From: Mariniblastus sp.
GTDB lineage: Bacteria; Planctomycetota; Planctomycetia; Pirellulales; Pirellulaceae
Direction of reading: 5' to 3'
Length of the DNA: 64,000 bases
NCBI GenBank assembly: GCA_029251085.1
Contig: JAQXDZ010000036.1
Coordinates: 1 to 64,000, forward strand
In this document: positions 3,462 through 54,431 of the stretch, in pieces
How positions within the stretch are numbered: position 1 is the stretch's first letter
Layout of the letters: each line of letters begins with the position of its first letter
Translations under genes and position numbers: made by a program
Notes under the pieces: generated by a model
The model's input: the letters and a program-made list of their open reading frames with translations, nothing else
Database searches by the model: none
Told to the model about the DNA's origin: nothing

Positions 3462-4025
3462 ATGAAAATTTATACTAAAACCGGTGACCAAGGTGAAACC
3501 GGCCTACTCGGTGGAGTTCGTGTTTCGAAGTCTCATTCAGCGATCAAAGTCTGTGGTTCGATAGACGAAGTCAACTCTTTTATTGGTTTAGCGCGGGTTG
3601 AAAACCAATCAGAATCGCTCAACTCACTTCTGACACAGATCCAGCATGACCTATTTGACCTCGGCAGTCGAGTCGCAGCCTGTTTGAGCAGTTCTGACCG
3701 CATCCCGAACTTCCCCGCTGAGCGAGTGGCAGAATTAGAAAAAGCCATCGATCAATACGACGAAGAACTCGCCCCGTTAAAAGCTTTTATACTTCCCGGG
3801 GGCGGGCGTACTGGCAGTACGCTGCATCTCGCCAGATCGGTTTGCCGTCGTGCTGAACGACAACTCGTGGAGTTAATCAACTCGAAAACAGAAGCGGACC
3901 TGTCACTCGAGCTGATCTACCTTAACCGCCTCGGTGACTTACTTTTTGTTTTGGCGAGATACACAAACCAGCTCGACCAGTGCCCGGAAACTGAATGGAA
4001 TGTCGGGCGGAAAGACAAATCTTGA
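3462..4025 (+). CDS. pduO: PduO-type cob(I)alamin adenosyltransferase
   Basis: Transfers the adenosyl group of ATP to cob(I)alamin, making the coenzyme B12 used by radical mutases and dehydratases. The N-terminus MKIYTKTGDQGETGLLGG is the ATP-binding signature of the PduO/MMAB family; further conserved parts are the GSIDEVNSFIG segment (residues 32-42), the FILPGGGRTGSTLHLARSVCRRAER block (about 123-147) and LIYLNRLGDLLFVLAR near the C-terminus. Length of 187 residues matches a stand-alone enzyme. No cobalamin riboswitch or other B12 gene is visible next to it, so it is probably expressed independently. It shares a 63-base divergent promoter region with the Nudix hydrolase. Confidence 0.92.
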   Translation: MKIYTKTGDQGETGLLGGVRVSKSHSAIKVCGSIDEVNSFIGLARVENQSESLNSLLTQIQHDLFDLGSRVAACLSSSDRIPNFPAERVAELEKAIDQYDEELAPLKAFILPGGGRTGSTLHLARSVCRRAERQLVELINSKTEADLSLELIYLNRLGDLLFVLARYTNQLDQCPETEWNVGRKDKS

Positions 4026-4224
4026 GAAAATTTCTTCACCTTCAAAATGCAAACGCGCCTTCGTTGGCTAAGATTCCAGCCTTGCCGGCGTCGCAATGGC
4101 TGATTTCCCTAAGATAATCGATTGTCCGAAGATTTTGACTTCTCGGGTTCAGCAGCAAAAACAATCTTGTCAGCAGGATTAGAATTCAGCGACAATGCGT
4201 TACAATTGAGAAGGCTCCAGTGTG

Positions 4225-4247
4225 GTCACCGACAGGTAGTCGGTCAC
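4225..4247 (+). promoter_or_regulatory. Hairpin in the glnB upstream region
   Basis: GTCACCGAC (4225-4233) and GTCGGTCAC (4239-4247) form a nine-base stem with one mismatch around a five-base loop, 73 bases before glnB. No T-run follows. It could be a leader structure or operator. Nothing else was recognised in the 295-base gap 4026-4320. Confidence 0.3.
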
Positions 4248-4293
4248 GAGTCTTTTGCGGCACCCACCGAGAGTCGGATGTGCTGCGAACTAA

Positions 4294-4659
<366 letters not shown>

Positions 4660-4796
4660 AACTTACCCCCCTAGAAATAAATGGGATGGAATGAGCAACA
4701 GGGCTTCGCGACCGACCACACGCGTTGCCCTCTGTTCGACCACAACCGTTTCACCATGGAAGAAACGTACCCCCAACGGTAATCATCGATAATAAG

Positions 4797-4812
4797 CCAT
4801 CCCACGGGATGG
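4797..4812. promoter_or_regulatory. Palindrome between glnB and glnD
   Basis: CCATCCC-AC-GGGATGG is a perfect inverted repeat directly before glnD. The sequence from 4806 (GGGATGGAAAGAGCAA) is repeated at 4683-4698 with one mismatch, just after glnB. It might be a regulatory or RNA-processing element; function unknown. Confidence 0.3.
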
Positions 4813-4829
4813 AAAGAGCAAGTCCTACC

Positions 4830-7478
4830 ATGACCAATGGAATCGGCATTCGCCCTAACGTTCTCGAGTCCCGCGAGCGGTGGAAATCGAGCCTTGTCGA
4901 TATTCGGAAACTGCATGACGAGGGCGCTTCCGGTAGAGAAACCTGCCACCTCATTTCCGACCTACTCGACTCGATCTTAATAAAGATATACGAAACAGCA
5001 CTCGCAGAAATTTCGCCGGGGCTGGTTTCTCGAATCAGCCTTGTACTTTTGGGTGGCTGCGGACGGCGAGACGTCGCACCGTTTTCTGATGTCGACCTGA
5101 TGGTGCTTTACCAAGGAAGTTTAACGGATGACATTGTTGAATTTTCTCGCCGAATCTCGCAAGACATAACCGACTCTGGATTCCAATTGGGCTACAGCCT
5201 TCGGACTCCCCGCGACGCCTGCAGTATGTCGCTCAAAGATGCTTACATTTTTTCCTCGCTCACCGAAGCCCGTTTGCTGGCTGGCAATGAAGAGTTGTTT
5301 CGATACTTTGCCGGACGATTCAAACGAATCACCAATCGAAAAACGTTTAACATCATCAAAGCGATTATCGCAGCCCGAGAGAAAGAGCGAGTCGAGTTTG
5401 GTGAAACCGTCTACCTGCTCCGTCCTAATGTTAAAAAATCTCGTGGCGGATTGAGAGATATCCATCTCGTCCGCTGGCTCGGCTATGTCCAATTTGGCGA
5501 AACGGATATTAACCGTCTACTCGCCAAAGGCGCGCTCTCAACAGCGGATTCGACACAACTGAATAACTCCAGCGAATTTCTTTTGCGAGTTCGCAATGAA
5601 ATGCATTTCCATGCAAATCGCGCCAACGATGGACTCGGCCGAAATGAACAGGTTCGCCTAGCTGAGCGATTTGGATTTTCAGGAGATGACGCACTTCTTT
5701 CCGTCGAAGAATTTATGCGTCAGTACTTTCGTTACACCAGCCGAATTCACTATATCTGCGAACATTTCGTTGCCAAAAGTACCAGCCGCAAAAAGGCTCA
5801 AGCAGTGACGATGATAGAGCCCCTCGTGACGCGGCAAATTGACGACCATTTCCGAATGGGCGCCACTCAAATTGGCGTCACCAAGCCCCACCTTGAGTCC
5901 GTCAAGAAAAACCTGGAACAGGTACTAAGATTGATGCAACTGGCTTGTCTTCACGACAAAACCATTGAACACGATACGTGGATCGCCATTCGACATGAGA
6001 TGCTGAAGAATCCAGACATTAAATTCACTCGCGAAAGCGCGCGGCGATTCATGGCGTTACTTTCAAACACCCACGGACTCGCCTCCCAATTGCGACGCCT
6101 CCATGAAATGAAAGTCCTCTGGAAAATTATCCCGGAGTTCGAACATGCTCGCGGCCTACTGCAATTCAATGAATATCACAAATTCACGGTAGATGAACAC
6201 TCCATGCAGGCTCTGGAGAATTTGACAAAATTTGCCGATGCCCAAAATACCGTGGGCGCAACCTATCGTAACATTCGCGAAAAAAACATCCTGCATCTAG
6301 CAATCCTGCTCCATGATTTAGGCAAAGGATTCCACGAAGACCACAGCGAGGTTGGACGGCGGATAGCGGCGTCCACCGGCGAGCGGTTCGACTTAACCGA
6401 AGACGAAACTGAGACGATTAAGTTTCTCGTCCACAACCACCTCGTCATGTCGCACTTAGCGCTTCACCGAGACATCAACGACGACCAAATGGTCGCTGAA
6501 TTTGCCTCCAACGTTGGCTCTGTCCAAATGCTCTCGATGCTCTATGTTCTCACCTGTGCAGACATCTCTGCCGTCGGGCCGGGAGTTTTGACTCCATGGA
6601 AACAAGGATTGCTTACGGGGTTATACAAACGCGCTAAGAGCGTCCTGTCAGGCGAAAATGAAAATCTTGAAAAAGAGCGATTTGATGGCGTCTACAATCT
6701 GGTCGCCGCACAAGCGGAAACAGAGGACGGACAGAATTGGCTAAGAAATAAAGTTGAAACGCTTCCTAGCAGCTATTGTGAATCCCACTCGCCCGAAACG
6801 ATCGCAACTCGGCTGAATGAGATTCGACGCGTTAACCCTCGCGAAGCGGTTTGCGATATCAGCCGCTTGGAAAAATCTAAACTCTACGAAATTTGCATTG
6901 GTAAAGTATCAAGCCGAAGAACTGGAATCTTCTACAAGATCACAGGAATGCTCAGCAGCTTAGGCTTGCAAATTCGGGCAGCCGACATCAAACCCATGGG
7001 TGATTCGTTAGTCTTCTACTGGATTCAGTTCGAGGACAAACAATTCTCTCAACCCAATCAGGCTCGCTACGCCGACATCAAACAACGAGCCCTCGATTTA
7101 GTTTTAGAAGTTGATGAAGATCCGCCAAGATTTCCCGCAAAGTGGGAAAAAGAAGAAAGCGCTGCCCTCAAACTGTCACGACCAGAGATTCGTGTGAAAA
7201 TTGACAATGAAACCGTTAGCTCGGCTACCATTATCGATGTTTTTGCTTACGACAAGTCAGGTTTATTGTATAAGTTAACAAAGACGTTACATCGACTCGG
7301 CCTTGATGTTACCTACGCGAGAATCTCTACCTACGCCCATCAAGTCATCGATGTTTTTTATGTGACCGATGAACAGGGGAATAAGATTCGCAACCGCAAC
7401 CAACTCCAACTCATCAAAAATGAACTGCTCCAGTCGACCCGAAATTTCCTCGAACCCCCTGAATCTTCTGCCCCCTAG
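4830..7478 (+). CDS. glnD: Bifunctional uridylyltransferase/uridylyl-removing enzyme
   Basis: Senses glutamine and adds UMP to, or removes it from, Tyr51 of PII. Domains in order: nucleotidyltransferase with GGCGRRDVAPFSDVDLMV at about residues 75-92, holding the GG and D-x-D metal ligands; the GlnD PII-uridylyltransferase helical part; an HD phosphohydrolase domain with HLAILLHDLGKGFHEDHSE near residue 490; and two C-terminal ACT domains from about residues 690 and 800 that bind glutamine. Length 882 residues matches the family. The longest frame starts at 4725, but the first 35 codons are not family-like; ATG 4830, with GGAAAGAG upstream, is preferred (ATG 4809 is an alternative). It follows glnB by 170 bases. 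Confidence 0.95.
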   Translation: MTNGIGIRPNVLESRERWKSSLVDIRKLHDEGASGRETCHLISDLLDSILIKIYETALAEISPGLVSRISLVLLGGCGRRDVAPFSDVDLMVLYQGSLTDDIVEFSRRISQDITDSGFQLGYSLRTPRDACSMSLKDAYIFSSLTEARLLAGNEELFRYFAGRFKRITNRKTFNIIKAIIAAREKERVEFGETVYLLRPNVKKSRGGLRDIHLVRWLGYVQFGETDINRLLAKGALSTADSTQLNNSSEFLLRVRNEMHFHANRANDGLGRNEQVRLAERFGFSGDDALLSVEEFMRQYFRYTSRIHYICEHFVAKSTSRKKAQAVTMIEPLVTRQIDDHFRMGATQIGVTKPHLESVKKNLEQVLRLMQLACLHDKTIEHDTWIAIRHEMLKNPDIKFTRESARRFMALLSNTHGLASQLRRLHEMKVLWKIIPEFEHARGLLQFNEYHKFTVDEHSMQALENLTKFADAQNTVGATYRNIREKNILHLAILLHDLGKGFHEDHSEVGRRIAASTGERFDLTEDETETIKFLVHNHLVMSHLALHRDINDDQMVAEFASNVGSVQMLSMLYVLTCADISAVGPGVLTPWKQGLLTGLYKRAKSVLSGENENLEKERFDGVYNLVAAQAETEDGQNWLRNKVETLPSSYCESHSPETIATRLNEIRRVNPREAVCDISRLEKSKLYEICIGKVSSRRTGIFYKITGMLSSLGLQIRAADIKPMGDSLVFYWIQFEDKQFSQPNQARYADIKQRALDLVLEVDEDPPRFPAKWEKEESAALKLSRPEIRVKIDNETVSSATIIDVFAYDKSGLLYKLTKTLHRLGLDVTYARISTYAHQVIDVFYVTDEQGNKIRNRNQLQLIKNELLQSTRNFLEPPESSAP

Positions 7479-38716: not shown

Positions 38717-39080
38717 CGCTAACCGAATCATCTGCCGTTGGCAGATCTCTCAAAATGATTAAATAGCCTTCCTTCGAATTCAACAGTTCGATTGTCTTGC
38801 CTGCCTTGTTGGCATGTTCCCAAGACGCTAATTGAGTTTTTAGCCTTGGAGCATCCAAATGCCCTATATCAAGGCAGAAAACCCACGAATCCCTGAAGAC
38901 TTATCACAATCAAACGTTGCCCAAGCGTACTTTTTGCAGTTAAAGAAGGGTACATAAGAGGCTTTCCGGCGTTTCGGACCTCGAGAGATCTTAGGGATTC
39001 TGATGCCGGCCACCTTTCTTGGCTTACACGCTCAGGCTTCCGATTTACTAGCCGATTAATTCAACGTTTTGTGGGCAAGC
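38717..39080. other. Intergenic stretch, nothing recognised
   Basis: About 360 bases; no gene or clear regulatory structure seen. Confidence 0.4.
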
Positions 39081-39095
39081 ATGTCAGGAACCAAA

Positions 39096-39677
39096 ATGAC
39101 TTTTTGGATAACCACTTTCACCGTAGTAGCGTTTCTTTTTGTAGGCTGGAAACTGACTGCGAGAGGGAACTACGAGACAGCGGCCTACCAAGTAATCGAC
39201 TCTGATGGCGCCTTCGAACTTCGAGATTACCCAGAAATCATGTTGGTCACGACCGACATGGCCCTAAATTCAAATGGTAACGACGGCAGCTTTGGACGCC
39301 TCTTTCAGTACATCAGCGGCGGCAACGAGGTCGGTCAAAAAGTCAAAATGACGACCCCTGTCTTTATGGAATCCGACGCAACCGGGGCGACTGGCACAAT
39401 GGGTTTTGTCATTCCGCAAAAGGTAGCAGAGTCAACCATTCCTCAACCGACGGGGGCTCGTGTTGAAATTGAGAAAAGAACTGCCGGCAAGTACGCTGTG
39501 TTGCGCTTCAATGGGCGACTGAATGAACGAACTCAGGCGGACAGTGAAGCTAAGTTAATTGACTGGATTGAAGAGCAAGGTTGGGAACGAGAAAACCAGA
39601 CGGAATTTGCCGGCTACGATCCCCCATGGACTCCAAAAATTTTACGGAGAAATGAAACACTAATTCGCCTTAAATAA
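39096..39677 (+). CDS. SOUL family haem-binding protein
   Basis: SOUL/HBP proteins bind haem or free porphyrins. The chain (193 residues from ATG 39096) has an N-terminal membrane anchor or signal (FWITTFTVVAFLFVGWKLTA), then the family core: YETAAYQVIDSDGAFELRDYPEIMLVTTDM, FGRLFQYISGGNEVGQKVKMTTPVFME (the N-x-x-x-x-K-[IV]-x-M-T-T-P-V signature), GTMGFVIPQK and AVLRFNGRLNE. AGGA at 39086-39089 supports ATG 39096; ATG 39081 is an alternative. Its anchored form suggests a role at the envelope. It opens a region rich in flavin and tetrapyrrole-related genes (FAD oxidoreductase, photolyases, haem A synthase, TspO). Confidence 0.88.
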   Translation: MTFWITTFTVVAFLFVGWKLTARGNYETAAYQVIDSDGAFELRDYPEIMLVTTDMALNSNGNDGSFGRLFQYISGGNEVGQKVKMTTPVFMESDATGATGTMGFVIPQKVAESTIPQPTGARVEIEKRTAGKYAVLRFNGRLNERTQADSEAKLIDWIEEQGWERENQTEFAGYDPPWTPKILRRNETLIRLK

Positions 39678-39737
39678 TGCGGGACTTCGAAAGTCCATAC
39701 GCACACCAACCGCTAGAAGAGCTCATAGGAATAATCG

Positions 39738-39902
39738 ATGTTAGGATTTGGTAATAAAACAAAGAAACTCGAAAAGAAATATCAACAACTTCTCGAGGAG
39801 GCATTTCAGCTTTCGACTTCCAATCGCGCCAAGAGCGATGAAAAGACGGCGGAGGCGGAAAAGATTCGCATCCAATTAGATGCATTAAAACAGACGGACT
39901 AG
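39738..39902 (+). CDS. Small Lacal_2735-type (DUF6435-like) protein
   Basis: A 54-residue protein beginning MLGFGNKTKKLEKKYQQLLE and ending DALKQTD, with AGGAA seven bases before the ATG. The pattern (short start, KKLEKKYxxLLEEAxxL, then AEAEKIxxxLDAL) matches the small helical hairpin family seen in many marine bacteria under names such as Lacal_2735. Two amphipathic helices, no membrane segment. Function unknown. It lies 60 bases after the SOUL gene on the same strand. Confidence 0.7.
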   Translation: MLGFGNKTKKLEKKYQQLLEEAFQLSTSNRAKSDEKTAEAEKIRIQLDALKQTD

Positions 39903-40068
39903 GATCTGTTTGGCAGAGAAAATTCTGACCGAATTACCCGCCGTTTATCGGACAAGAACAAATCGGTCACATGAGCGATCGCTTTGAGAAACGAGTTAAT
40001 TTGCACCATGATTTTCAGTCTACTTGGAAGCAGTCCGCTTTTGAATTTTTGATTTGGTAAGTATTAGC

Positions 40069-40326
40069 ATGTCCTCCATTAATCGCTTTTCTCTCAACCG
40101 CCCTGATTACGTCTTGACACTCGTCGAGAAACCAACAGGCTGGAAACCCCGAAATTACTTCGAAAAACCGCGACAGGCGGTAATCCTGTCCCGCCATCCG
40201 GTTGCCAGCTACGCTGAGGCACACGATGATCTTGTGCGATGCAATCGGCTCGCCCTAAGACATTCCCTAGGACAGTGGGCGGTGATTGAGACAGCAGGCG
40301 CTGAGTCTCACCAAGAGATCGAATAG
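40069..40326 (+). CDS. Small conserved-looking protein, unknown function
   Basis: 85 residues from ATG 40069 (MSSINRFSLNRPDYVLTLVEKPTGW). The centre reads ILSRHPVASYAEAHDDLVRCNRLALRHSLGQWAVIE, compact and mixed alpha/beta, without signal peptide. The frame opens at a TTG 15 bases earlier, less likely as a start. It ends 11 bases before the 3' end of the convergent FAD oxidoreductase gene. I do not recognise a family. Confidence 0.55.
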   Translation: MSSINRFSLNRPDYVLTLVEKPTGWKPRNYFEKPRQAVILSRHPVASYAEAHDDLVRCNRLALRHSLGQWAVIETAGAESHQEIE

Positions 40327-40337
40327 CGATGGCGGAG

Positions 40338-41603
40338 TTAAGCCGGACGCAGTGATGTGACCAACCGTTCCGCAGTCATTCGCCCAGAGCGCAAGGCTCC
40401 TTCTAGTGATGCCGTCTCTAAATAGTCACCACAGAGTAGAATGTTGCCACGCCGGGTGCTGTCGAGTTCCTTGCGATTGAAGTGCGCGGGATTCGCTGAG
40501 GGCAGGGCGTAGGGTATTGAATAAGTTTTCAGATGTTGCCATTGATCGACTGTCTTTCCAAACCAGTCTCTGGCCTGACAGACAACCTCATTTCTCAAAC
40601 TGTCTTCACAATCGTCGTTTATCGCTCCCAGGCAACTGATTGAAATCAGTGACTTTCCAGCTGGAGCACACTTTGGATCGACTAGACTGGGCACGCACAT
40701 ATTGTTAATCGGACCGGTTCCCTCACCATTCAAGATTAGCATTGGCTGCTCGACGGGTGATTTTTCTGAACCGAAATAGAAACAGGTGACGCCGTGCGGT
40801 TCTAAAGGCTCCGTTTCCAAATCGAGCAATTGGCTGACCACTCGCTCAGGACAGGCCATAACAACCCGAGAGGCTGTAATCTGCTCGCCGTCTTTCATTT
40901 CAATGGTGTTTGTTTCGGGATCGATGCGCTTCACCTCAGCATTGACACGAATTGCCTCGTTCGGCAGGCCAGAGGCAAGTTGCCGAGGTATCGCCTCCAT
41001 CCCCCCCGATGGAATGGCTGCATCGCCTGAGGAGAACATGCGAAAAACTAGATCAAATTTACGCGTCGATGTCGCTAATTCTGGCTCTAAGAAAACGCCG
41101 CCGAGAAACGGTTTGAAAAATCGATCGATAAAACCGCTTGAGAATCCCTCTGATTTTAACCGTTCAAGCGTCGATGTTTCTGGGCGGGTGTAAAGGTCTT
41201 CGATTGCTCCACGGCAAGAGTTGATCTTCAGCCTCGCTAAACGCAACTTGTCACCGAAGGAAGCAACAGGAGACTTCAACGTCGAAAACAACTTTCGTGG
41301 CCGACGAATCGGATCAACGAACTGGTGCAACTCTCCCCGATAACGGATCAAAGCCCCGGGCTCGTAATTTTTTAGCTGGAGCGATTCGAAATCTAAAAGT
41401 TCACGTGCCTCTGGATAAGCGGTCAGCAAAATCTGAAACCCACGGTCCAGAGAAAAACCATCGACAACGTCAGTACGAATACGACCGCCGACCGCTTCAG
41501 AACATTCCAAAATCAAACTTGAAACGCCGCTATCGTGTAGATGCTTGGCACAGGAAAGTCCAGCGACACCACCTCCGATGATAACGACTTGCGGTGACGA
41601 CAT
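40338..41603 (-). CDS. FAD-dependent amine-oxidase/protoporphyrinogen-oxidase-like enzyme
   Basis: 421 residues from ATG 41603. The Rossmann dinucleotide motif GGGVAGLSCAKHLHDSG (about residues 9-25) with the following EAVGGRIRTD and a C-terminal GDYLETASLEGALRSG FAD-binding motif are those of the amine oxidase/phytoene desaturase/PPO superfamily. Segments RFFKPFLGGVFLEPEL and AIPSGGMEAIPRQLA fit the subgroup annotated as NAD(P)/FAD-dependent oxidoreductases. Substrate unknown: carotenoid, porphyrin or amine are all possible. It follows the ECF sigma gene by 99 bases on the same strand, with AGAAGA before the start, and is probably in its operon. Confidence 0.82.
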   Translation of the reverse strand: MSSPQVVIIGGGVAGLSCAKHLHDSGVSSLILECSEAVGGRIRTDVVDGFSLDRGFQILLTAYPEARELLDFESLQLKNYEPGALIRYRGELHQFVDPIRRPRKLFSTLKSPVASFGDKLRLARLKINSCRGAIEDLYTRPETSTLERLKSEGFSSGFIDRFFKPFLGGVFLEPELATSTRKFDLVFRMFSSGDAAIPSGGMEAIPRQLASGLPNEAIRVNAEVKRIDPETNTIEMKDGEQITASRVVMACPERVVSQLLDLETEPLEPHGVTCFYFGSEKSPVEQPMLILNGEGTGPINNMCVPSLVDPKCAPAGKSLISISCLGAINDDCEDSLRNEVVCQARDWFGKTVDQWQHLKTYSIPYALPSANPAHFNRKELDSTRRGNILLCGDYLETASLEGALRSGRMTAERLVTSLRPA

Positions 41604-41702
41604 TTTCTTCTGCGTGTGAAACAAGGGGGACGCCTACCTAGCAAACAAATCAAAATGACTGGATGCCTCAGCATTATCAAAGCAATCGGACGATTGCCCG
41701 AT

Positions 41703-42344
41703 CTAGTTTAATTCAGTCTGAGAAATTCCCTCGGGCTGCATGAGTTCACGCAACCTGCGAATAGCCCGCAAATAACGCATCGAGGCCGCAGGTTCCGAGA
41801 GGTTCAGAATCTTACTGATTTCCTGGTTTGTTAAATGTTCATAGTGCCGCATGATGATGATCTCGGAATCTCTCTCTTCCAATTGAGAAATTGAATGTTC
41901 TATTTTTTTCGCGAGCTCTTTCTGTAACGCCGCAGCAGCAGGCGTAATTTTTGAATCCCCTAAAAGCGAAGCGAGTTGGATTGACGATTGATCATGTCCG
42001 CCGGGAGCAAACAGTTGCTGTTCTCTGTCAACTGATCGTTTCGCTGAAACTCGGTGCCTTCGGTGCGCGTCAATGATTCGGTCTTTCGCAATCTGCCTAA
42101 GCCAAAGATGAAACGGCATTACCGGAGTTTCCAGATAACGCTGGAGTCGACGGTTTGCTTCGACGAGAACGTCCTGCACAACATCGCTGACGTCGACTCG
42201 ATTTTGAACCTTCTTATCCAGTCGCATTCTCACCAAATGGTTCAACGAATTCCGATGGCGATCCATCAGTTGGTTCACTGCGGAGTGGTCGCCGGCCTTG
42301 GCGTTCGCAATGAGTTGCTCAGTCTGAGGAGATTGGGGCCACAT
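41703..42344 (-). CDS. ECF-type sigma factor (planctomycete type)
   Basis: 213 residues from ATG 42344 (MWPQSPQTEQLIANAKAGDHSAVNQLMDRHRNSLNHLVRMRLD). Region 2 includes RVDVSDVVQDVLVEANRRLQRYLETPVMPFHLWLRQIAKDRIIDAHRRH, and region 4 SISQLEERDSEIIIMRHYEHLTNQEISKILNLSEPAASMRYLRAIRRLRELM, both typical of the planctomycete sigma-70 family. No anti-sigma gene of zinc-binding ChrR/RsiW type follows; instead a membrane M48-like protein precedes it and a FAD enzyme follows. Two perfect 20-base repeats lie immediately upstream (42362-42401), suggesting dedicated control. Its position in a photolyase-rich region makes it the candidate regulator of the island (inference). Confidence 0.9.
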   Translation of the reverse strand: MWPQSPQTEQLIANAKAGDHSAVNQLMDRHRNSLNHLVRMRLDKKVQNRVDVSDVVQDVLVEANRRLQRYLETPVMPFHLWLRQIAKDRIIDAHRRHRVSAKRSVDREQQLFAPGGHDQSSIQLASLLGDSKITPAAAALQKELAKKIEHSISQLEERDSEIIIMRHYEHLTNQEISKILNLSEPAASMRYLRAIRRLRELMQPEGISQTELN

Positions 42345-42361
42345 GGTTATCACCGAGTAAA

Positions 42362-44182: not shown

Positions 44183-45652
44183 ATGAAAATACTACTTACA
44201 GGCGCGACCGGTTATGTTGGCGGTCGGCTTCTGCCACTCATGCTTGAGCGAGGGAGCGATGTCAGGTGCTTGACACGCCGCCCTGATGGCCTGGAAGACA
44301 CTATCGGGCCGGTTGATGTCGCGGTGGGCAATTTATTAGATCCAGATTCGTTAAAAGACGCCTTGAAAGACGTCCACACCGCATTCTATTTAGTTCACTC
44401 GATGGGCTCGACTGACGACTTCGAGACAATGGACCGGCGTGCCGCGGAAAACTTTGCAGCGGAATGCACACGTCAAAATGTAAAAAGAATTATTTATCTC
44501 GGCGGCCTCGGCAATCCAGATCACAAGCTGTCAAAACACCTGCGGAGTCGGCAAGAAATCGGCGACATCTTGAGGACTTCCACTGCCAGCGTCATTGAAT
44601 TTCGCGCTTCAATCATCATCGGCTCCGGCAGCCTATCGTTCGAGATGATCAGAGCACTGGTGGAACGTTTACCAGTGATGATCTGTCCGAAATGGGTCCG
44701 GGTGCTGGCACAACCGATTGCGATTGAAGACGTTCTGGCTTACCTGGTGGAAGCTCTGGATCAGCCTGTTGACGAAACACAAATCTTTGAAATTGGGGGG
44801 CCCGACCAAATCTCTTACGGGGAAATCATGCAGTGCTACGCCCGACAGCGGGGATTAAAACGATGGATGATTCCGGTACCGCTGCTGACCCCTTATCTCT
44901 CGAGTCTCTGGTTGGGACTAGTGACACCCTTGTATTCGCGGGTAGGGCGCAAGTTAGTCGATAGCCTAAAAAACCCAACACTGACGTCCAATAACGTTGC
45001 AGATCGGCACTTCAAGGTTCGACCAAGATCGGCAGAAAAATCAATCGCTCGCGCACTTGTGAACGAAGACAGAGAATTCGCCGAAACTCGTTGGTCCGAC
45101 GCACTTTCGGCGGGAGGCCAACCGAAGTCTTGGGGCGGGGTACGATTTGGCTCGAGACTCGTAGACTCTCGGACTAGACAAGTTTCTACGACAACAGAAT
45201 CCGCGTTCCTTCCAATTCGTCGGATTGGCGGAGAAACAGGTTGGTACTACGGGACCTGGCTTTGGCAAATCAGAGGCTTTATGGATCTGCTTGTCGGGGG
45301 CGTGGGAGTCCGGCGGGGACGTCGCGATCCAGATCATTTGCGGGTCGGCGACACTCTTGATTTTTGGCGAGTAGAAAAATTTGTTGAAGGGAAATTGCTT
45401 AGGCTGGCGGCAGAAATGAAGGTCCCGGGACGAGCTTGGCTAGAATTTGAAGTCACGGAGGAAGACGGAGAAACGGTTGTTCGTCAGACAGCGCTTTTCG
45501 ACCCAGTTGGGCTATTCGGAATCGCCTATTGGTATGCACTGTACCCGCTTCACCAGTTCGTTTTTGAAGGAATGTTACGCAACATTTGCAAAGCTGCGAC
45601 CACTACGCCCGTAGACGCCTCTAAAGAAAACACGTCCTCGGCGATGAACTGA
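44183..45652 (+). CDS. NAD(P)-binding SDR fused to DUF2867
   Basis: 489 residues. The first 230 form an atypical SDR Rossmann fold: MKILLTGATGYVGGRLLPLMLERG with the TGxxGYVG motif, DVHTAFYLVHSMGS, RIIYLGGLGNPD, and VIEFRASIIIGSGS. From about residue 344 follows the DUF2867 domain (FLPIRRIGGETGWYYGTWLWQIRGFMDLLVGGVGVRRGRRDPDHLRVGDTLDFWRVE...). This architecture recurs in bacterial gene sets next to photolyases and light-induced regulators, though its substrate is unknown; membrane quinone or lipid modification has been suggested for relatives and is only an inference here. Monocistronic or first gene of the following plus-strand series. Confidence 0.85.
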   Translation: MKILLTGATGYVGGRLLPLMLERGSDVRCLTRRPDGLEDTIGPVDVAVGNLLDPDSLKDALKDVHTAFYLVHSMGSTDDFETMDRRAAENFAAECTRQNVKRIIYLGGLGNPDHKLSKHLRSRQEIGDILRTSTASVIEFRASIIIGSGSLSFEMIRALVERLPVMICPKWVRVLAQPIAIEDVLAYLVEALDQPVDETQIFEIGGPDQISYGEIMQCYARQRGLKRWMIPVPLLTPYLSSLWLGLVTPLYSRVGRKLVDSLKNPTLTSNNVADRHFKVRPRSAEKSIARALVNEDREFAETRWSDALSAGGQPKSWGGVRFGSRLVDSRTRQVSTTTESAFLPIRRIGGETGWYYGTWLWQIRGFMDLLVGGVGVRRGRRDPDHLRVGDTLDFWRVEKFVEGKLLRLAAEMKVPGRAWLEFEVTEEDGETVVRQTALFDPVGLFGIAYWYALYPLHQFVFEGMLRNICKAATTTPVDASKENTSSAMN

Positions 45653-46242: not shown

Positions 46243-46953
46243 TCACTTTCTTAAGGTCGACATCCCGCCGTCAACGGCGAGTACCTGTCCGGTCATCCAA
46301 CTCGCTTCGTTGGAGAGTAAGAAGCGAGCGGTCGAAGCGAGATCTGTTGGCAAACCCGTTCTTCCAAGTGGATATTTTGATGCCATTGCTTCGCGGTTTT
46401 CGGGGGAGCTGAAAAATCGTGAAGCCAAAGGGGTATCTGTCAGGGCCGGCGCAATGCAGTTAACGCGAATCTTTGGAGCCCATTCAGCCGCGAGCGAGCG
46501 GGTTAATCCCTCGACCGCACCCTTCGCAGCGGCAACCGAGGCGTGCATTGAAAGCCCCTGAGAGACCGCAACCGTGCTGAACATGACCACGCTTGCCCCG
46601 CCTTCGGCCGCCCCTCTTTTAAGGGACGGCAGACAGCCCTGTAGAAACTTTACCGCCCCGATAAGGTTTACCTCAAAATCTGCGACAAAATCGGCTGGTT
46701 TAAGAGCTCGAAAAGACCTCAAATTAATTGTCCCGGGACAATAGACAACTCCGTTTACCGCCGCTGGAATGCTTGAAAAATCAAGGTCGTTTGCAGTGAA
46801 GTCCATGTCGTGCCGGAATACTTTTTCGTGGTCAGCAAGTTCCCCCTGTGACCTCGAAAACACGTCGATGCGATCCGCGAACGGTGTCAACTGATTGACG
46901 ATCTCCAGCCCAATACCTTTGCTGCCGCCTGCAATTACAAAGTTCCCACCCAT
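46243..46953 (-). CDS. SDR-family oxidoreductase without catalytic Tyr
   Basis: 236 residues with the classical SDR cofactor motif GGSKGIGLEIV at residues 9-19 and later VNCIAPALTDTPLASRFF plus a C-terminal SWMTGQVLAVDGGMS, as in FabG-like enzymes. The active-site segment reads STVAVSQGLSMHASVAAAKGAVEG: the Lys of Y-x3-K is present but the Tyr position is Val. Ser is present in STVAV. A subgroup of SDRs with HAS(V/I)AxAKGAVEG, often found beside photolyases in marine bacteria as I recall, shares this change, so it seems to be a specific variant rather than decay. Divergent from the photolyase-fusion gene. Confidence 0.8.
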   Translation of the reverse strand: MGGNFVIAGGSKGIGLEIVNQLTPFADRIDVFSRSQGELADHEKVFRHDMDFTANDLDFSSIPAAVNGVVYCPGTINLRSFRALKPADFVADFEVNLIGAVKFLQGCLPSLKRGAAEGGASVVMFSTVAVSQGLSMHASVAAAKGAVEGLTRSLAAEWAPKIRVNCIAPALTDTPLASRFFSSPENREAMASKYPLGRTGLPTDLASTARFLLSNEASWMTGQVLAVDGGMSTLRK

Positions 46954-47193: not shown

Positions 47194-49662
47194 ATGCTTC
47201 CGTCTCAAATTCATCTTAACGAGCGATGCCGCTGGATTAATCCCGAAATAGATCTCTGTACGCCAAAAGCTGACGGGTTCATTCTCTACTGGATGCGATA
47301 TGCTCTTCGCGCTGAAGAGAACCCAGCCCTCGATGTCGCGATAAGCACTGCGAACCTTCACAACTGCCAATTATTAGTGGTTCAGCAACTGAATTGTCAG
47401 GATGAGTATTCTTCTGACCGTCATTACACATTTGCGTTAGAGGGAGCCGCCGACGTTCAAGCCCAACTTACCGACAAAGGGATTAGTTATGCTTTCCACC
47501 TGACTCCCAGCAAAAACGAATTATCTTCTCTAGCCGAACTTGCCCGCCAGGCTGAACTCGTCATTACCGAAGAGATGCCGACGACCTTCGCTCGCAAAGA
47601 GCTAGATTCACTCAGCAATTTAGTTGAAACTCCGTTTCTGTGCGTTGACGCATCCTGCGTCCTCCCCATGCAACTTTCGAACGGGGCGTTTACCCGTGCA
47701 TTTGAGTACCGCAACGCAACTAAGGACGAATATGAAAAAAGGGTCTCACTGCCATGGCCAGCGACACCATTGTCACCTCGCCCATTCCCCATTGACGAAC
47801 TACCTTTCCAGCCGGTTGATTTTAAATCGGCCAACATAAACGATCTGATCTCAAGCTGCGAAATTGACCACTCCATTTCCCCTGTCGTCGATACCCAAGG
47901 TGGCACAACCGCTGGCTATCAACGATGGGATGCCTTCAAAGAAAAACACCTCAGCCGGTATGCCGATCGCAGAAACGACCCCCTGCTAAACGGTGTCAGC
48001 CGAATGTCGGCTTACCTCCACTACGGAATGGTATCTCCAATGCGTTTGGCTCGGGAAGCCGCTGAATTTCAAAATGCAGGCGCCGACAAATATTTGGATG
48101 AACTGTTGTTTTGGCGAGAGCTTGCTTTTGTTTTTTGCTTCCATAAAAAGCAACATGATGGCTGGAGTGCCATTCCTAGCTGGGCAAAAAAAACGCTTGA
48201 GGCTCATGGAAACGACGACCGTCCAACTCTGTACACTTGGGAATCTCTAGCGAGAGCCCAAACTAACGACGAATTTTGGAATGCCGCTCAACTGACTCTG
48301 TTGAGGCATGGTGAACTCCACAACAACCTCCGAATGACCTGGGGGAAAGCAATCCTCAACTGGACTAAAACCCCTCAAGACGCGATGGAGCTAGTCTTTG
48401 ATCTCAATCACCGCTACGCACTCGACGGCCGCGATCCGTCATCAGTCGGTGGCATTTTATGGTGCTTTGGGCAATTCGACCGCCCGTTTAAACCTGCTCG
48501 CCCAATTATGGGAACGGTAAGGGAGCGGTGCACCGAAACTCACGCAGACCGCCTCTCGGTTTCAGATTATCGAAATCAGTTCGTTAGCCCAAGAATAAAA
48601 CACCGCCCGCGTATCGCGGTTATTGGTGCCGGCATCTCTGGACTCTTCGCAGCGAGAACGATCGCAGACCACGGGATGGAGGTTGTCGTTTTTGAAAAGA
48701 GTCGAGGAGTAGGCGGCCGAATGGCAACTCGCCGCACCCCGTCCCAGCAAAGGTTCGACCATGGTGCACAGTATTTTACGGCAAGGGATGAACGCTTTCT
48801 CAGACATGTCCGCTCGTGGCAAGCACAGGGAGTTGTTGCGAATTGGCCAGGTCAAAGTCGAGATAATGGCGATCAAATTGCAGTGATTGAGAACGGAGAA
48901 ATTAAATCTTACTCCACGTCCGAGCAAAGATTTGTCGGCACTCCCGGCATGAACGCGATAGGAAAACACCTCGCAGATGGCCTCGACATCCAACTTAAAA
49001 CAGAGGTTAAATCCATAGCCTCAACGAACAACCAGATCACACTCAAAGATTCTTCGCAAAAAATTCTCGGCAATTTTGACAGCCTGGTAATTTCTGCGCC
49101 CGCCGCACAGACGGCAGGATTACTCTCTGATTTTCCAACCATCGGAGAGCCTATTTCGAAAATAACGATGAACCCATGCTGGGCCGTGATGGCAGAATTC
49201 CCTAAACCGCTCGGCACTGCGTGGGCGGCAGCGTTCGTTCACGAATCGCCAATTTCCTGGGTAGCCCGGAACCAAACAAAACCAGGGCGAAAGTCATCGC
49301 AAGAACAATTAGTAATTCATGCCAATCCTCAGTGGAGTACCGATCATTGGAATGAAACCCCTGAACAAGTTTCAGCAACTTTACTCGATGAGTTCTGGCG
49401 GGCGACTTCGGTTGCTCTGCAAATCCCCACAACCGCAATCGCTCACAGATGGAAATACGCCATCCCCGTTAACCCGGCTAAAATCGAAAGCTACTTTGAT
49501 GCCGAAACTGGCATTGCCGCTTGCGGAGATTGGGCAAACGGCTCACGAGTCGAAGGAGCGTTCCTGAGCGGAATGTCTGCCGCAGGGCGAATCATGGGGA
49601 TATTAAATTCAAAAAAGAGGAAAAACGCGGCTCAAAGTAAGGACTTCTCCCCGACCTTGTAG
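47194..49662 (+). CDS. Class II photolyase fused to renalase-like FAD oxidoreductase
   Basis: 822 residues, two enzymes in one chain. Residues 1 to about 465 are a class II CPD photolyase: FILYWMRYALRAEENPALDVA, SDRHYTFALEGAADVQAQL, SAYLHYGMVSPMRLA, DELLFWRELAFVFC, WNAAQLTLLRHGELHNNLRMTWGKAILNWT, and LDGRDPSSVGGILWCFG. From about residue 472 a second FAD protein begins with IAVIGAGISGLFAARTIADHGMEVVVFEKSRGVGGRMATRR and FDHGAQYFTARDERFLRHV, the signature of bacterial renalase-like amine oxidases, and ends with GIAACGDWANGSRVEGAFLSGMSAAGRI. The two types are normally separate neighbouring genes in light-stress clusters; here the junction is in frame with no stop. Light-driven repair of pyrimidine dimers is the expected function of the first half; the second half's substrate is unknown. 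Confidence 0.9.
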   Translation: MLPSQIHLNERCRWINPEIDLCTPKADGFILYWMRYALRAEENPALDVAISTANLHNCQLLVVQQLNCQDEYSSDRHYTFALEGAADVQAQLTDKGISYAFHLTPSKNELSSLAELARQAELVITEEMPTTFARKELDSLSNLVETPFLCVDASCVLPMQLSNGAFTRAFEYRNATKDEYEKRVSLPWPATPLSPRPFPIDELPFQPVDFKSANINDLISSCEIDHSISPVVDTQGGTTAGYQRWDAFKEKHLSRYADRRNDPLLNGVSRMSAYLHYGMVSPMRLAREAAEFQNAGADKYLDELLFWRELAFVFCFHKKQHDGWSAIPSWAKKTLEAHGNDDRPTLYTWESLARAQTNDEFWNAAQLTLLRHGELHNNLRMTWGKAILNWTKTPQDAMELVFDLNHRYALDGRDPSSVGGILWCFGQFDRPFKPARPIMGTVRERCTETHADRLSVSDYRNQFVSPRIKHRPRIAVIGAGISGLFAARTIADHGMEVVVFEKSRGVGGRMATRRTPSQQRFDHGAQYFTARDERFLRHVRSWQAQGVVANWPGQSRDNGDQIAVIENGEIKSYSTSEQRFVGTPGMNAIGKHLADGLDIQLKTEVKSIASTNNQITLKDSSQKILGNFDSLVISAPAAQTAGLLSDFPTIGEPISKITMNPCWAVMAEFPKPLGTAWAAAFVHESPISWVARNQTKPGRKSSQEQLVIHANPQWSTDHWNETPEQVSATLLDEFWRATSVALQIPTTAIAHRWKYAIPVNPAKIESYFDAETGIAACGDWANGSRVEGAFLSGMSAAGRIMGILNSKKRKNAAQSKDFSPTL

Positions 49663-49739: not shown

Positions 49740-50537
49740 ATGCCGGAAGGACATACGATTCACCGACTTGCGAAAGACCACCAAAAGTGGTTCGCCGGAC
49801 AAAAGATGGGGGCACTCTCTCCGCAGGGAAGATTTTCTGAAGAGGCCGAGCAGATTTCGGGGCTAAAACTAGTTTCAACCTCGGCGCATGGAAAACATCT
49901 GTTCTACCACTGGGAAGACGGACAGACCATGCACATCCATCTCGGTTTATACGGCAAGTTTCGGGTGCATCGGAATCCGGCACCTGAACCCCGTGGTGCC
50001 GTTCGAGTTCGCATGATTGGAAATGAACGGACATTCGATCTCAACGGTCCAAATTGCTGTGAGTTATTGCCTCAGGATCGTCTAGATACTTTGTTAAATC
50101 GCTTAGGACAGGACCCGCTCAGAAGTGACGCATCCCCCGAGATCGTTTGGGCTAGATTCACGCGATCTCGTTCCAGCATTGGCACTCTTCTCCTTAATCA
50201 ATCTGTGATTGCGGGGGTGGGAAATGTCTACCGAGCAGAGATATTGTTTCTTCTTGGGATCCACCCAGAAACTCCGACAAACACAATTGACCGCGAAACA
50301 TTTGACGAACTCTGGAAACTCACAACAGAACTTTTAAAAACAGGTGTAAAGTACAATCGCATTATCACAGTTGAGCGGGAAAAAGGTGGAAAACCACTTA
50401 GCCGCCTCAACTCACGAGAGCGACTCCACGTCTATAAACGCACACACTGCCCGCACTGCAATCATCGGATTCGAACCTGGGAATTAGGAAACCGAAAAAT
50501 GTACGCTTGCGAAAAATGCCAAACACTTAATGACTGA
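49740..50537 (+). CDS. Fpg/Nei-family DNA glycosylase (endonuclease VIII-like)
   Basis: Base-excision repair enzyme removing oxidised bases and cutting at the abasic site. Start ATG 49740 is chosen because the mature enzyme needs Pro2 and Glu3 as catalytic residues, present in MPEGHTIHRLA, the start of Nei/Nei2-type members. Also visible: MHIHLGLYGKFRVH, the helix-two-turn-helix LLLNQSVIAGVGNVYRAEILFLLGIHP, and a C-terminal zinc finger YKRTHCPHCNHRIRTWELGNRKMYACEKCQ with four Cys. 265 residues. It lies 77 bases after the photolyase fusion on the same strand, adding oxidative repair to UV repair. Confidence 0.92.
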   Translation: MPEGHTIHRLAKDHQKWFAGQKMGALSPQGRFSEEAEQISGLKLVSTSAHGKHLFYHWEDGQTMHIHLGLYGKFRVHRNPAPEPRGAVRVRMIGNERTFDLNGPNCCELLPQDRLDTLLNRLGQDPLRSDASPEIVWARFTRSRSSIGTLLLNQSVIAGVGNVYRAEILFLLGIHPETPTNTIDRETFDELWKLTTELLKTGVKYNRIITVEREKGGKPLSRLNSRERLHVYKRTHCPHCNHRIRTWELGNRKMYACEKCQTLND

Positions 50538-50574: not shown

Positions 50575-51033
50575 ATGGAATTCTCAGTTTTATTATTGCT
50601 AATTAATGCAGTGGCGACGCTCTACATGACAGGGCTAATTTGGATGGTGCAAATTGTGCACTACCCATTGTTCGCTGAGGTTGGGATGGAACAGTTCCCC
50701 CAATACGCACGAAAGCATCAATTCCTAACCTCAATTGCAGTCGGTCCGCCAATGCTTACTGAAGCGTTGAGTGCAGCACTCCTCGTTTGGTATATCCCAC
50801 CAGGCATTTCGCTAACCATGGTGATTATTGGAATTGTATTGGTGGTTAGCATTTGGATTTCAACTGCTGTGATTCAGGTTCCGTGCCACGAAAAATTGGC
50901 AGAGGGTTTCACAACATCAATCCACCAAAAACTCGTGTTGTCGAACTGGTTCCGAACAGTTGCATGGACCGCTCGGGGAGCTTTTGTCATCTGGATGTTA
51001 GCGACAGTAATATCGACATCACTTGTCACCTAA
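50575..51033 (+). CDS. Four-helix membrane protein, unknown function
   Basis: 152 residues with four hydrophobic segments: FSVLLLLINAVATLYMTGLIWMVQIV, TSIAVGPPMLTEALSAALLVWYI, SLTMVIIGIVLVVSIWISTAVIQV and AWTARGAFVIWMLATVI. Polar residues inside or next to the helices (QIVHYPLF, KHQFL, QVPCHEKL, SIHQKLV, NWFRT) are the kind that bind a cofactor or a metal in membrane oxidoreductases. I recognise similar proteins only as uncharacterised. It follows the glycosylase by 37 bases, so an operon is likely. Confidence 0.65.
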   Translation: MEFSVLLLLINAVATLYMTGLIWMVQIVHYPLFAEVGMEQFPQYARKHQFLTSIAVGPPMLTEALSAALLVWYIPPGISLTMVIIGIVLVVSIWISTAVIQVPCHEKLAEGFTTSIHQKLVLSNWFRTVAWTARGAFVIWMLATVISTSLVT

Positions 51034-52931: not shown

Positions 52932-54431
52932 TCAGGAATCAAGCTGTTTCAAGAAAGATTCAGCATTATCGAGATGCGTTTGTCTTTTTTCTTGGTCCAT
53001 CTTTTTGGCCATGCTGCACATCATAGCCCAGCGTGGATTTTTCCCCAGTTCGTCGGTGTGATTCCAGATCCATCTCCAGTACAACCCATCCCAAACATCA
53101 CACCACTCGCCTTTTTTATGATGGCTCATCTTTCGGATGTAAGATGAGCCTGAGAAGTAGGGTTTAGTTGTGATCAAACCGCCATCCGCGTTTTGACTCA
53201 TTGCATATGCATTGGGAACCATCACCCAGTCGTAACTATCTACGAACAACTCCATGAACCACCGATAGATCTCGTCAGGATCAAATTCACATAAAAACAT
53301 GAACCCGCCTAGCACCATCAATCGCTCGATGTGGTGACAGTAACCTGTCTTCAGCACCCGCTGAATGGTGTCGTCAACTGGAATAATCCCAGTAGTTCCG
53401 TCGTAAAAGGACTGCGGAATCTTTCGATGGTGCCCCCAATGGTTGGTCGTCCTCATTTTCACACCGAGGTCGTGATACGTCGCTCGCATAAACTCTCGCC
53501 AACCGATAATTTGACGCACAAAACCTTCCACAGAATTGAGTGGAACATCGTAGTTTTCAAATTGCTTGACTGCTGCTTTGACAACTTGGTCGGGCGTTAA
53601 CAGCCCTATGTTTAGCGATGGCGTAAGCATGCTGTGCCAAAGCCAGGATTCGCCCTCGACGATCGCGTCCTCGTACGCTCCGAACTTTTCAAAACGGTGT
53701 TTTAGAAAATGCTTCAACCATGCCTTCGCGTCTTTGTGCGAGGTCGGATAAAAAAATGTTTCAATCTCACCAAAGTTGTCAGCAAAGCGATCTTCGACGT
53801 AACGCCTTGCTTCTTCATCAATATCATCCGACTTAAGTTTTAGTAGTTGAGGAATTTCAGGCAACAACTTTTTAGGAACCTTTTTCCGATTGTCTTCGTC
53901 GAAACTCCACTTCCCGCCGATTGGCTCGGTCTTCTCCATCAGCACATTCAATCGTCGCCGCTGCCACTTGTAGAAGTCAGCCATAAACCAACGTTTCTTA
54001 CCGGCGCGGTACTCAGCATTTTCGCCAGCCCCGTTCAGGAACCCCGGATTTGGAAGAAACTTCAGCTCAACACCCGTATTGTCTGCGTACCGCATAAGCC
54101 TTCGGTTTAGCAGGTAATCGTCAGGCTCCACTACCATCATTGAATCCTGAGATTTCTTTTTCCCTTTGCGAAGACTTGCAAGTTGAACCTGCAGTGCTTG
54201 AGGGTCCGAGCGATACTCAATGTAGACCGTCTTAAAACCTTGCTCCTCAAGGCGAGCCTGATAGCGTTTCATCGTTGCACGGTGAAGCCAAAGTTTCTGC
54301 TTATGGAATTTGACGAAATTTTCAGCATCTCCGAAGAAAAGACTGTCCTCGATCAAGACGATCCGGCTCGGCTTCCACTGGAGCCCCGGATGATTCTCAA
54401 ACAATTGATGTGGAAATACGAGCAGATCCAA
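52932..54431 (-). CDS. (6-4)-photolyase/cryptochrome of the FeS-BCP/CryPro type, cluster ligands missing
   Basis: 499 residues of the photolyase-related COG3046 family, whose members repair (6-4) photoproducts or act as blue-light receptors. Recognisable: LLVFPHQLFENHPGL, IEYRSDPQALQVQLASL, GESWLWHSMLTPSLNIGLLTPDQVVK, GFVRQIIGWREFMRA, TGYCHHIERLMVLGGFMFL with the two active-site His, WVMVPNAYAMSQNADGG and KPYFSGSSYIRKMS. Canonical members bind a [4Fe-4S] cluster with four Cys, one before the His pair and three in the region between KMS and LYW. Here the first position is Pro (GIIPVDD) and the second region is the shortened HHKKGEWCDVWDGLYW with one Cys. The cluster is thus probably absent. 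Convergent with the plus-strand series. Confidence 0.85.
   Translation of the reverse strand: MDLLVFPHQLFENHPGLQWKPSRIVLIEDSLFFGDAENFVKFHKQKLWLHRATMKRYQARLEEQGFKTVYIEYRSDPQALQVQLASLRKGKKKSQDSMMVVEPDDYLLNRRLMRYADNTGVELKFLPNPGFLNGAGENAEYRAGKKRWFMADFYKWQRRRLNVLMEKTEPIGGKWSFDEDNRKKVPKKLLPEIPQLLKLKSDDIDEEARRYVEDRFADNFGEIETFFYPTSHKDAKAWLKHFLKHRFEKFGAYEDAIVEGESWLWHSMLTPSLNIGLLTPDQVVKAAVKQFENYDVPLNSVEGFVRQIIGWREFMRATYHDLGVKMRTTNHWGHHRKIPQSFYDGTTGIIPVDDTIQRVLKTGYCHHIERLMVLGGFMFLCEFDPDEIYRWFMELFVDSYDWVMVPNAYAMSQNADGGLITTKPYFSGSSYIRKMSHHKKGEWCDVWDGLYWRWIWNHTDELGKNPRWAMMCSMAKKMDQEKRQTHLDNAESFLKQLDS

Follow-up and report, generated by a model that had tools for sequence, protein, structure and literature searches.

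A class II CPD photolyase fused to a renalase-like FAD oxidoreductase in Mariniblastus and other bacteria

A single open reading frame of Mariniblastus sp. encodes two flavoenzyme domains in one chain, a class II CPD photolyase (about residues 10-461) followed by a complete renalase-like FAD oxidoreductase (residues 474-804). The frame lies in the window, the 64,000-nucleotide stretch of DNA that was analysed; it starts with ATG, ends with TAG and contains no internal stop codon. A sequence-only reading had proposed two enzymes in one polypeptide, the second of them renalase-like, and both proposals hold: the 822-residue frame is uninterrupted, each domain finds its match (renalase 4zcc over the whole of 474-804), and the motifs named in that reading, GxGxxG from residue 478, GGRMATRR at 507-514 and HGAQYF at 523-528, are all present.

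The fusion is interpreted here, with moderate confidence and from sequence, as a bifunctional light-damage enzyme that would combine DNA repair with the removal of aberrant NAD(P)H isomers. In the N-terminal half, a predicted class II CPD photolyase, blue light would drive the splitting of UV-made pyrimidine dimers. In the C-terminal half, a renalase-type FAD oxidase would return the 2- and 6-dihydro isomers, aberrant forms of NAD(P)H, to NAD(P)+. Fusion would provide the two flavoenzymes in equal amounts, and one chain would perform two light-damage repairs, of DNA dimers and of aberrant nicotinamide cofactors. We infer both catalytic activities, and the isomer substrate by analogy with what is known of the bacterial renalase family; the gene is presumed to be light-controlled, and light or UV stress would be the source of the isomers. 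A photolyase-renalase fusion is undescribed in the titles and abstract openings that searches of an open-access paper collection listed, a scope that largely leaves aside subscription journals. In the accessible parts of the text, "fusion," "oxidoreductase" and "planctomycet" are absent from PMC7560933 and "oxidoreductase" from PMC9649867.

Table 1. The fusion gene, its parts and its neighbours (positions in the window; loci are the 47 described in the text)
Feature	Position	Strand	Basis or remark
NAD(P)-binding protein with DUF2867	44183..45652	+	within 4 kb of the fusion in 5/47 loci
Short-chain dehydrogenase	46243..46953	-	PF13561; within 4 kb in 6/47 loci
Photolyase-renalase fusion gene	47194..49662	+	single ORF, 822 aa plus stop; same architecture in relatives
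Class II CPD photolyase half, residues 1-465	47194..48588	+	TIGR00591, PDB 8oet/2xry, CPD-binding residues
Junction, residues 443-478	48520..48627	+	photolyase C-terminal tail to first strand of FAD domain
Renalase-like FAD oxidoreductase half, residues 466-822	48589..49659	+	PDB 4zcc over 474-804, Foldseek, FAD-motif residues
Fpg/Nei-type DNA glycosylase	49755..50537	+	PF06831, PF01149; within 4 kb in 5/47 loci
152-residue protein	50575..51033	+	no Pfam match; hydrophobic by eye
DPRP photolyase-related protein	52932..54431	-	PF04244, E 1e-54; about 3.3 kb downstream of fusion

Pfam places DNA_photolyase at residues 31-160 and Amino_oxidase/NAD_binding_8 from about residue 476. An AlphaFold2 model made with 27 aligned fusions has a mean pLDDT of 90.1 and a pTM of 0.91 for the whole chain, with pLDDT below 50 at residues 811-822. 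Foldseek ranks the renalase 4zcc first for this model and then class II photolyases, mostly from Methanosarcina mazei; none of the 50 matches listed spans both halves.

The photolyase half aligns with the class II model TIGR00591 over residues 10-461 and model positions 6-451 of 453, at 322.7 bits (E 5.4e-96). This full-length match falls under the model's own cut-off of 550, so the half is best described as a divergent class II member. The class II photolyase structure 8oet matches residues 25-449 (E 1.3e-58), and Foldseek comparison with class II photolyases, again mostly of M. mazei, gives TMt values of 0.84-0.90. The M. mazei enzyme MmCPDII (PDB 2xry/8oet) shares its fold, CPD-binding residues and tryptophan chain with the fusion, at about 28% identity in the fold alignment, but has no C-terminal oxidoreductase. 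Its CPD-binding and bubble residues, as given in the accessible part of PMC6126647, are R164, R256, N257, E301, W305, M379, W421, D428, R429 and R441. All ten are identical in the window protein when mapped by hand through the alignment (R173, R260, N261, E303, W307, M381, W423, D429, R430, and R443). W431 of MmCPDII is replaced by F432, and Phe occupies this position in 76/90 fusions. W383, N405, W423, and D429 are invariant across the 90 fusions. The MmCPDII electron chain W381-W360-W388 (residue roles from the accessible parts of PMC6126647 and PMC5885780) corresponds to W383-W362-W390, all Trp in the window protein. In four Rhodopirellula-group fusions (L050, L052, L053, L055) the third Trp of the chain is Met and the renalase motifs are retained.

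Among 25 stand-alone class II enzymes, the E301 position is Gln in 10 (L083-L086, L091, L092, L094, L101, L103, L144) and the W305 position is Arg in 11 (L102, L103, L109-L116, L144). Branches with either replacement may bind substrate differently.

The two halves are joined at a nearly fixed distance. The junction measures 33-35 residues in all 81 aligned non-identical fusions, which were picked by BLAST scores. A second measure, the spacing from W423 to GxGxxG, is 53-56 residues in 79 of the 80 parsed frames and 59 in the remaining one; the other 12 of 92 frames were unparsed and are by eye similar in length. Between residues 430 and 500, the only in-frame ATG, GTG, TTG or CTG codons are ATG 439 and ATG 495, which leaves none from 440 to 494, and the linker therefore offers the renalase half no separate start.

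The near-fixed junction and high pTM are compatible with the passage of electrons or reduced flavin between the halves that the sequence-only reading had suggested. The renalase half might act as a reductase built into the photolyase, passing electrons from NAD(P)H or its isomers to the photolyase FAD and keeping it reduced for photorepair. This redox-coupled arrangement is doubtful, although several observations favor it: the junction keeps almost the same length in each of the three phyla with fusions, pTM is 0.91 across both domains, the photoreduction chain is broken in 9/90 fusions (W362 or W390 replaced) compared with 0/25 canonical class II relatives, and Thr occupies the position of the M. 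mazei side donor Y380 in 90/90 fusions. On the other hand, photoreduction appears to be mostly retained, because W383 is present in every fusion and the full chain in 81/90. Moreover, four of the nine losses are one and the same W390M in a single Rhodopirellula-type group, 16/25 canonical enzymes likewise lack Tyr at the Y380 position, and bacterial renalase is understood to reoxidize with oxygen. The specific scheme in which hydride from waste NAD(P)H isomers would reach the photolyase FAD along a fixed route between the domains is unlikely. If it were true, one damaged molecule would power the repair of another, and photolyases would have a third way of remaining active, beside photoreduction and diffusible reductants.

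The second activity of the bifunctional reading derives from the kinship of the C-terminal half with renalases. PDB renalase 4zcc matches it with E 5.5e-67, and the next-best amine-oxidase-type class follows far behind at about 5e-7. Foldseek gives TMt up to 0.96 and 38% identity with 4zcc, and the FAD motifs GxGxxG, GGRM, GAQYF, and GDW are common to both proteins. Bacterial renalases (PDB 4zcc, 4zcd, 5krq, and 3kkj of P. syringae) share the whole FAD domain and its motifs with the fusion, but they are stand-alone enzymes, whereas in the fusion this domain follows a photolyase in the same chain. Bacterial renalase oxidizes the 2- and 6-dihydro isomers of NAD(P). According to PDB titles, the nearest relatives with a solved structure were crystallized with NADH, NADPH and NAD+.

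Alternatively, the halves may be independent enzymes held at fixed stoichiometry under light stress, with an oxidoreductase substrate other than NAD(P)H isomers. The N-terminal FAD motif is matched by many FAD oxidoreductase families, and in Pseudomonadota the partners are separate neighboring genes; both observations speak for co-expression alone. This explanation is unlikely given that the best full-length matches in both sequence and fold are renalases and that the near-fixed junction length exceeds what co-expression needs.

Both halves are under purifying selection, as judged from dN/dS of about 0.05-0.12. In seven within-genus pairs, the ratio is 0.053-0.098 for the photolyase half and 0.083-0.115 for the renalase half, and these ratios are rough because six of the seven pairs have dS above 1. 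In 89 fusion renalase domains, G478, G480, G508, R509, G524, and W753 are invariant, and Q526 (kept in 74), W780 (75), and R785 (71) are variable. Alteration of renalase motif positions in a minority of members, such as L064, would fit a catalytically dead passenger that stabilizes the photolyase or aids flavin or DNA binding. Such a role is very improbable for a domain with dN/dS of 0.08-0.12 and FAD-binding positions invariant in 89/89 members. A merger of two adjacent genes by assembly or sequencing, conceivable for a window in a draft genome of 171 contigs, can be dismissed, because 92 non-identical frames (from all fetched loci, some being near copies) contain both domains without a stop, the fusion also occurs in one-contig genomes (such as G025, G063, G082, and G094), and the stop or frameshift at the junction that the sequence-only reading had named as counting against the fusion was looked for and is absent.

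The same reading had considered that the second half might be an extension common to all class II photolyases. Phylogeny argues otherwise, since the fusion photolyase halves form one distinct clade. A tree of 94 photolyase domains, after thinning at 75% identity, gives this clade SH-aLRT support of 100 and a stem of 0.56, and 73 of its 75 rows are fused. Outside it fall 19 stand-alone class II rows, which are those returned by the similarity searches and not a full class II sample, and stand-alone class II photolyases align to the query only until about residue 463 in most rows. An ordinary class II tail was rejected on these grounds. The two unfused rows within the clade differ in kind. L140 ends in a GGCAC repeat at a contig edge, and L141 (positions 3605-5350) is a lone photolyase whose frame ends shortly beyond the junction; a renalase domain was looked for and not found in the 9.3 kb of this locus. 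L141 has likely lost its renalase half, and the second half can therefore be lost.

The renalase half has a looser history, because stand-alone genes, mostly planctomycete ones, branch among the fusion domains. The renalase tree contains 9 changes, of which 3 are forced by starred branches; 4 are forced in a reduced set, made by dropping 11 long or odd rows from 107 and thinning at 65% identity. A single origin of the fused renalase domains has an AU p of 0.0506 in this reduced set. Release or exchange of the renalase domain is possible, and photolyase remnants were found beside none of 16 stand-alone renalases (L065, L066, L146-L159).

The fusion is common in close relatives and recurs in other phyla. 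It is present, in a single frame with both domains, in at least 39 of 147 genomes around the window, its own included: at least 24/28 in the same genus, at least 13/62 in the rest of the family, and at least 2/57 in the rest of the order. Across the Planctomycete phylum, it is found in at least 14 of 392 evenly drawn genomes, again counting its own. At least 21/282 genomes carry it in the phylum of the delta-proteobacterial metagenome-assembled genome (MAG) behind L061, as do 2/40 in that of the Sumerlaeaceae MAG behind L062, each count including the MAG itself. It was found in 0/249 genomes of Pseudomonadota, the phylum to which the Competibacteraceae MAG of locus L065 belongs, among the best-scored candidates. 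These counts, the Pseudomonadota zero included, are lower bounds because scoring in the 147-, 392-, 282-, and 249-genome samples was limited to the 2 to 6 best candidates of each genome. Fusions were counted when both domains lay in one open frame, including those in pieces (G001, G084), those cut by a contig end (G014, G762, G792), and those recognized with custom domain profiles (G641, G806). A partial case (G023) and one split over two contigs (G052) stand outside the 39, and G793 was left out of the delta-proteobacterial-phylum count. L064 was considered as a further phylum and dropped, since the genome reached through it (G534) led back to places already in the Planctomycete sample. Among the named carriers are Rhodopirellula baltica, R. 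rubra, R. sallentina, Stieleria tagensis, Rubripirellula obstinata, Neorhodopirellula pilleata, and Mariniblastus MAGs.

A number of genomes carry both the fusion and a stand-alone class II photolyase. In the window's own genome (92.67% complete, all 15 candidates scored), a second class II photolyase or renalase is absent, and one further PF03441 photolyase is present on contig C63, besides the DPRP gene of the window. A mobile or viral origin of the fusion was considered and is unsupported: phages gave no match, none of 41 matching plasmid records covers 80% of the query, and 23 pattern matches in viral contigs, from a scan that requires exact short peptides, include no relative.

Gene order around the fusion was compared in 47 non-redundant loci, each with 4 kb of sequence to either side. 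The DPRP family (PF04244) belongs to the photolyase superfamily. DPRP is a genomic neighbor of the fusion, but it represents another photolyase branch and has no oxidoreductase half. It is no more than 4 kb from the fusion in 11/47 loci, or in 8/44 without the three loci that share the gene order of the window (L032, L036, L037), set against an assumed chance rate of 2 DPRP per 6 Mb. A class I-type photolyase is this close in 2/47 loci, both with weak matches. In 60 genera of the window's family, DPRP occurs in 30, comprising 15/15 fusion genera and 15/45 others (p 5.8e-6, or 1.7e-5 with 14 genera when the split case G052 is removed; both values are uncorrected for shared ancestry and genome size). 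The 152-residue protein downstream of the fusion recurs within 4 kb in 8/47 loci, 5 of them outside the window's gene order. About 5-8 kb upstream of the fusion, at 39069-42353, genes for a SOUL heme-binding protein, an amine oxidase (PF01593), and an ECF-type sigma factor are clustered.

Outside the fusion, renalase-like genes were surveyed in 39 Pseudomonadota genomes, which contributed 40 loci with flanks of 8 kb each where available. Two cases were left out: G1298, whose hit is partial and lies at a contig end, and G535, whose locus L065 has no photolyase in 8 kb upstream or the roughly 0.5 kb downstream. In 13/40 loci, the same strand carries a photolyase frame no more than 4 kb away. Twelve are of the photolyase/cryptochrome type PF03441 (L210-L214, L216, L230, L237, L246-L249), where 0.18 would be expected by chance, and in the thirteenth (L242) the neighbor is DPRP. 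L217 has a photolyase fragment on the opposite strand, at a distance of about 7 kb. The suggestion in the sequence-only reading that a renalase-like gene often sits beside photolyase genes in other bacteria therefore stands for these 13 loci and fails for the other 27, which have no photolyase within 4 kb. At the genome level, PF03441 is present in 40/41 renalase-positive Pseudomonadota (hit at E 2.6e-18 or better) and in 75/208 others (Fisher p 1.2e-14, uncorrected for shared ancestry and genome size). Fourteen stand-alone renalase loci, mostly of Planctomycetes (L146-L159, at most 4 kb of flank), are weakly linked to photolyases: DPRP is a neighbor in 2, and a class I or class II photolyase in 0/14.

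Some of the 13 linked Pseudomonadota loci contain additional genes between renalase and photolyase, namely a MerR regulator (PF13411) in 6/13 (L210, L214, L216, L230, L237, L246; L214 and L216 also show a B12-binding match) and a RudS-type gene (PF04463 + PF08349) in 6/13 (L210, L211, L212, L213, L216, L249), the scans for both gene types covering part of the loci. The last six loci, with renalase-like, RudS-type, and photolyase genes in a row, resemble the LitR-regulated phrB cluster of Pseudomonas, which combines a photolyase gene, a MerR/LitR regulator, and RudS (PMC9758184, PMC11417400). The accessible parts of these papers describe light-inducible LitR clusters with PhrB, RudS appearing in PMC11417400, and do not name renalase for the cluster. 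PMC9758184 also includes in it an unspecified FAD-dependent oxidoreductase, PME6625, which the accessible text does not allow to be identified with renalase. The LitR-regulated cluster has a class I-type photolyase and separate genes, unlike the class II fusion.

Taken together, the conserved residues, selection on both halves, single photolyase clade, near-fixed junction, and Pseudomonadota linkage argue for the bifunctional reading. Weighing against it are the altered renalase half in some fusions, the loss in L141, the looser history of the renalase half, the 27/40 loci without linkage, and the weak linkage of the 14 stand-alone renalase loci L146-L159.

To our knowledge, it is not settled what purpose renalase serves in bacteria. 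Renalase is tied to photolyases twice, by the class II fusion in three phyla and by class I-type or DPRP neighborhoods in Pseudomonadota. From both ties we propose that renalase belongs to the light-damage response. The recurrence of the fusion in other bacteria likewise points to a common role of the two enzymes in dealing with light damage. The fusions define a photolyase subfamily with two predicted flavin sites at a nearly fixed sequence spacing, and they offer a natural system for asking whether a photolyase receives electrons from the enzyme fused to it.
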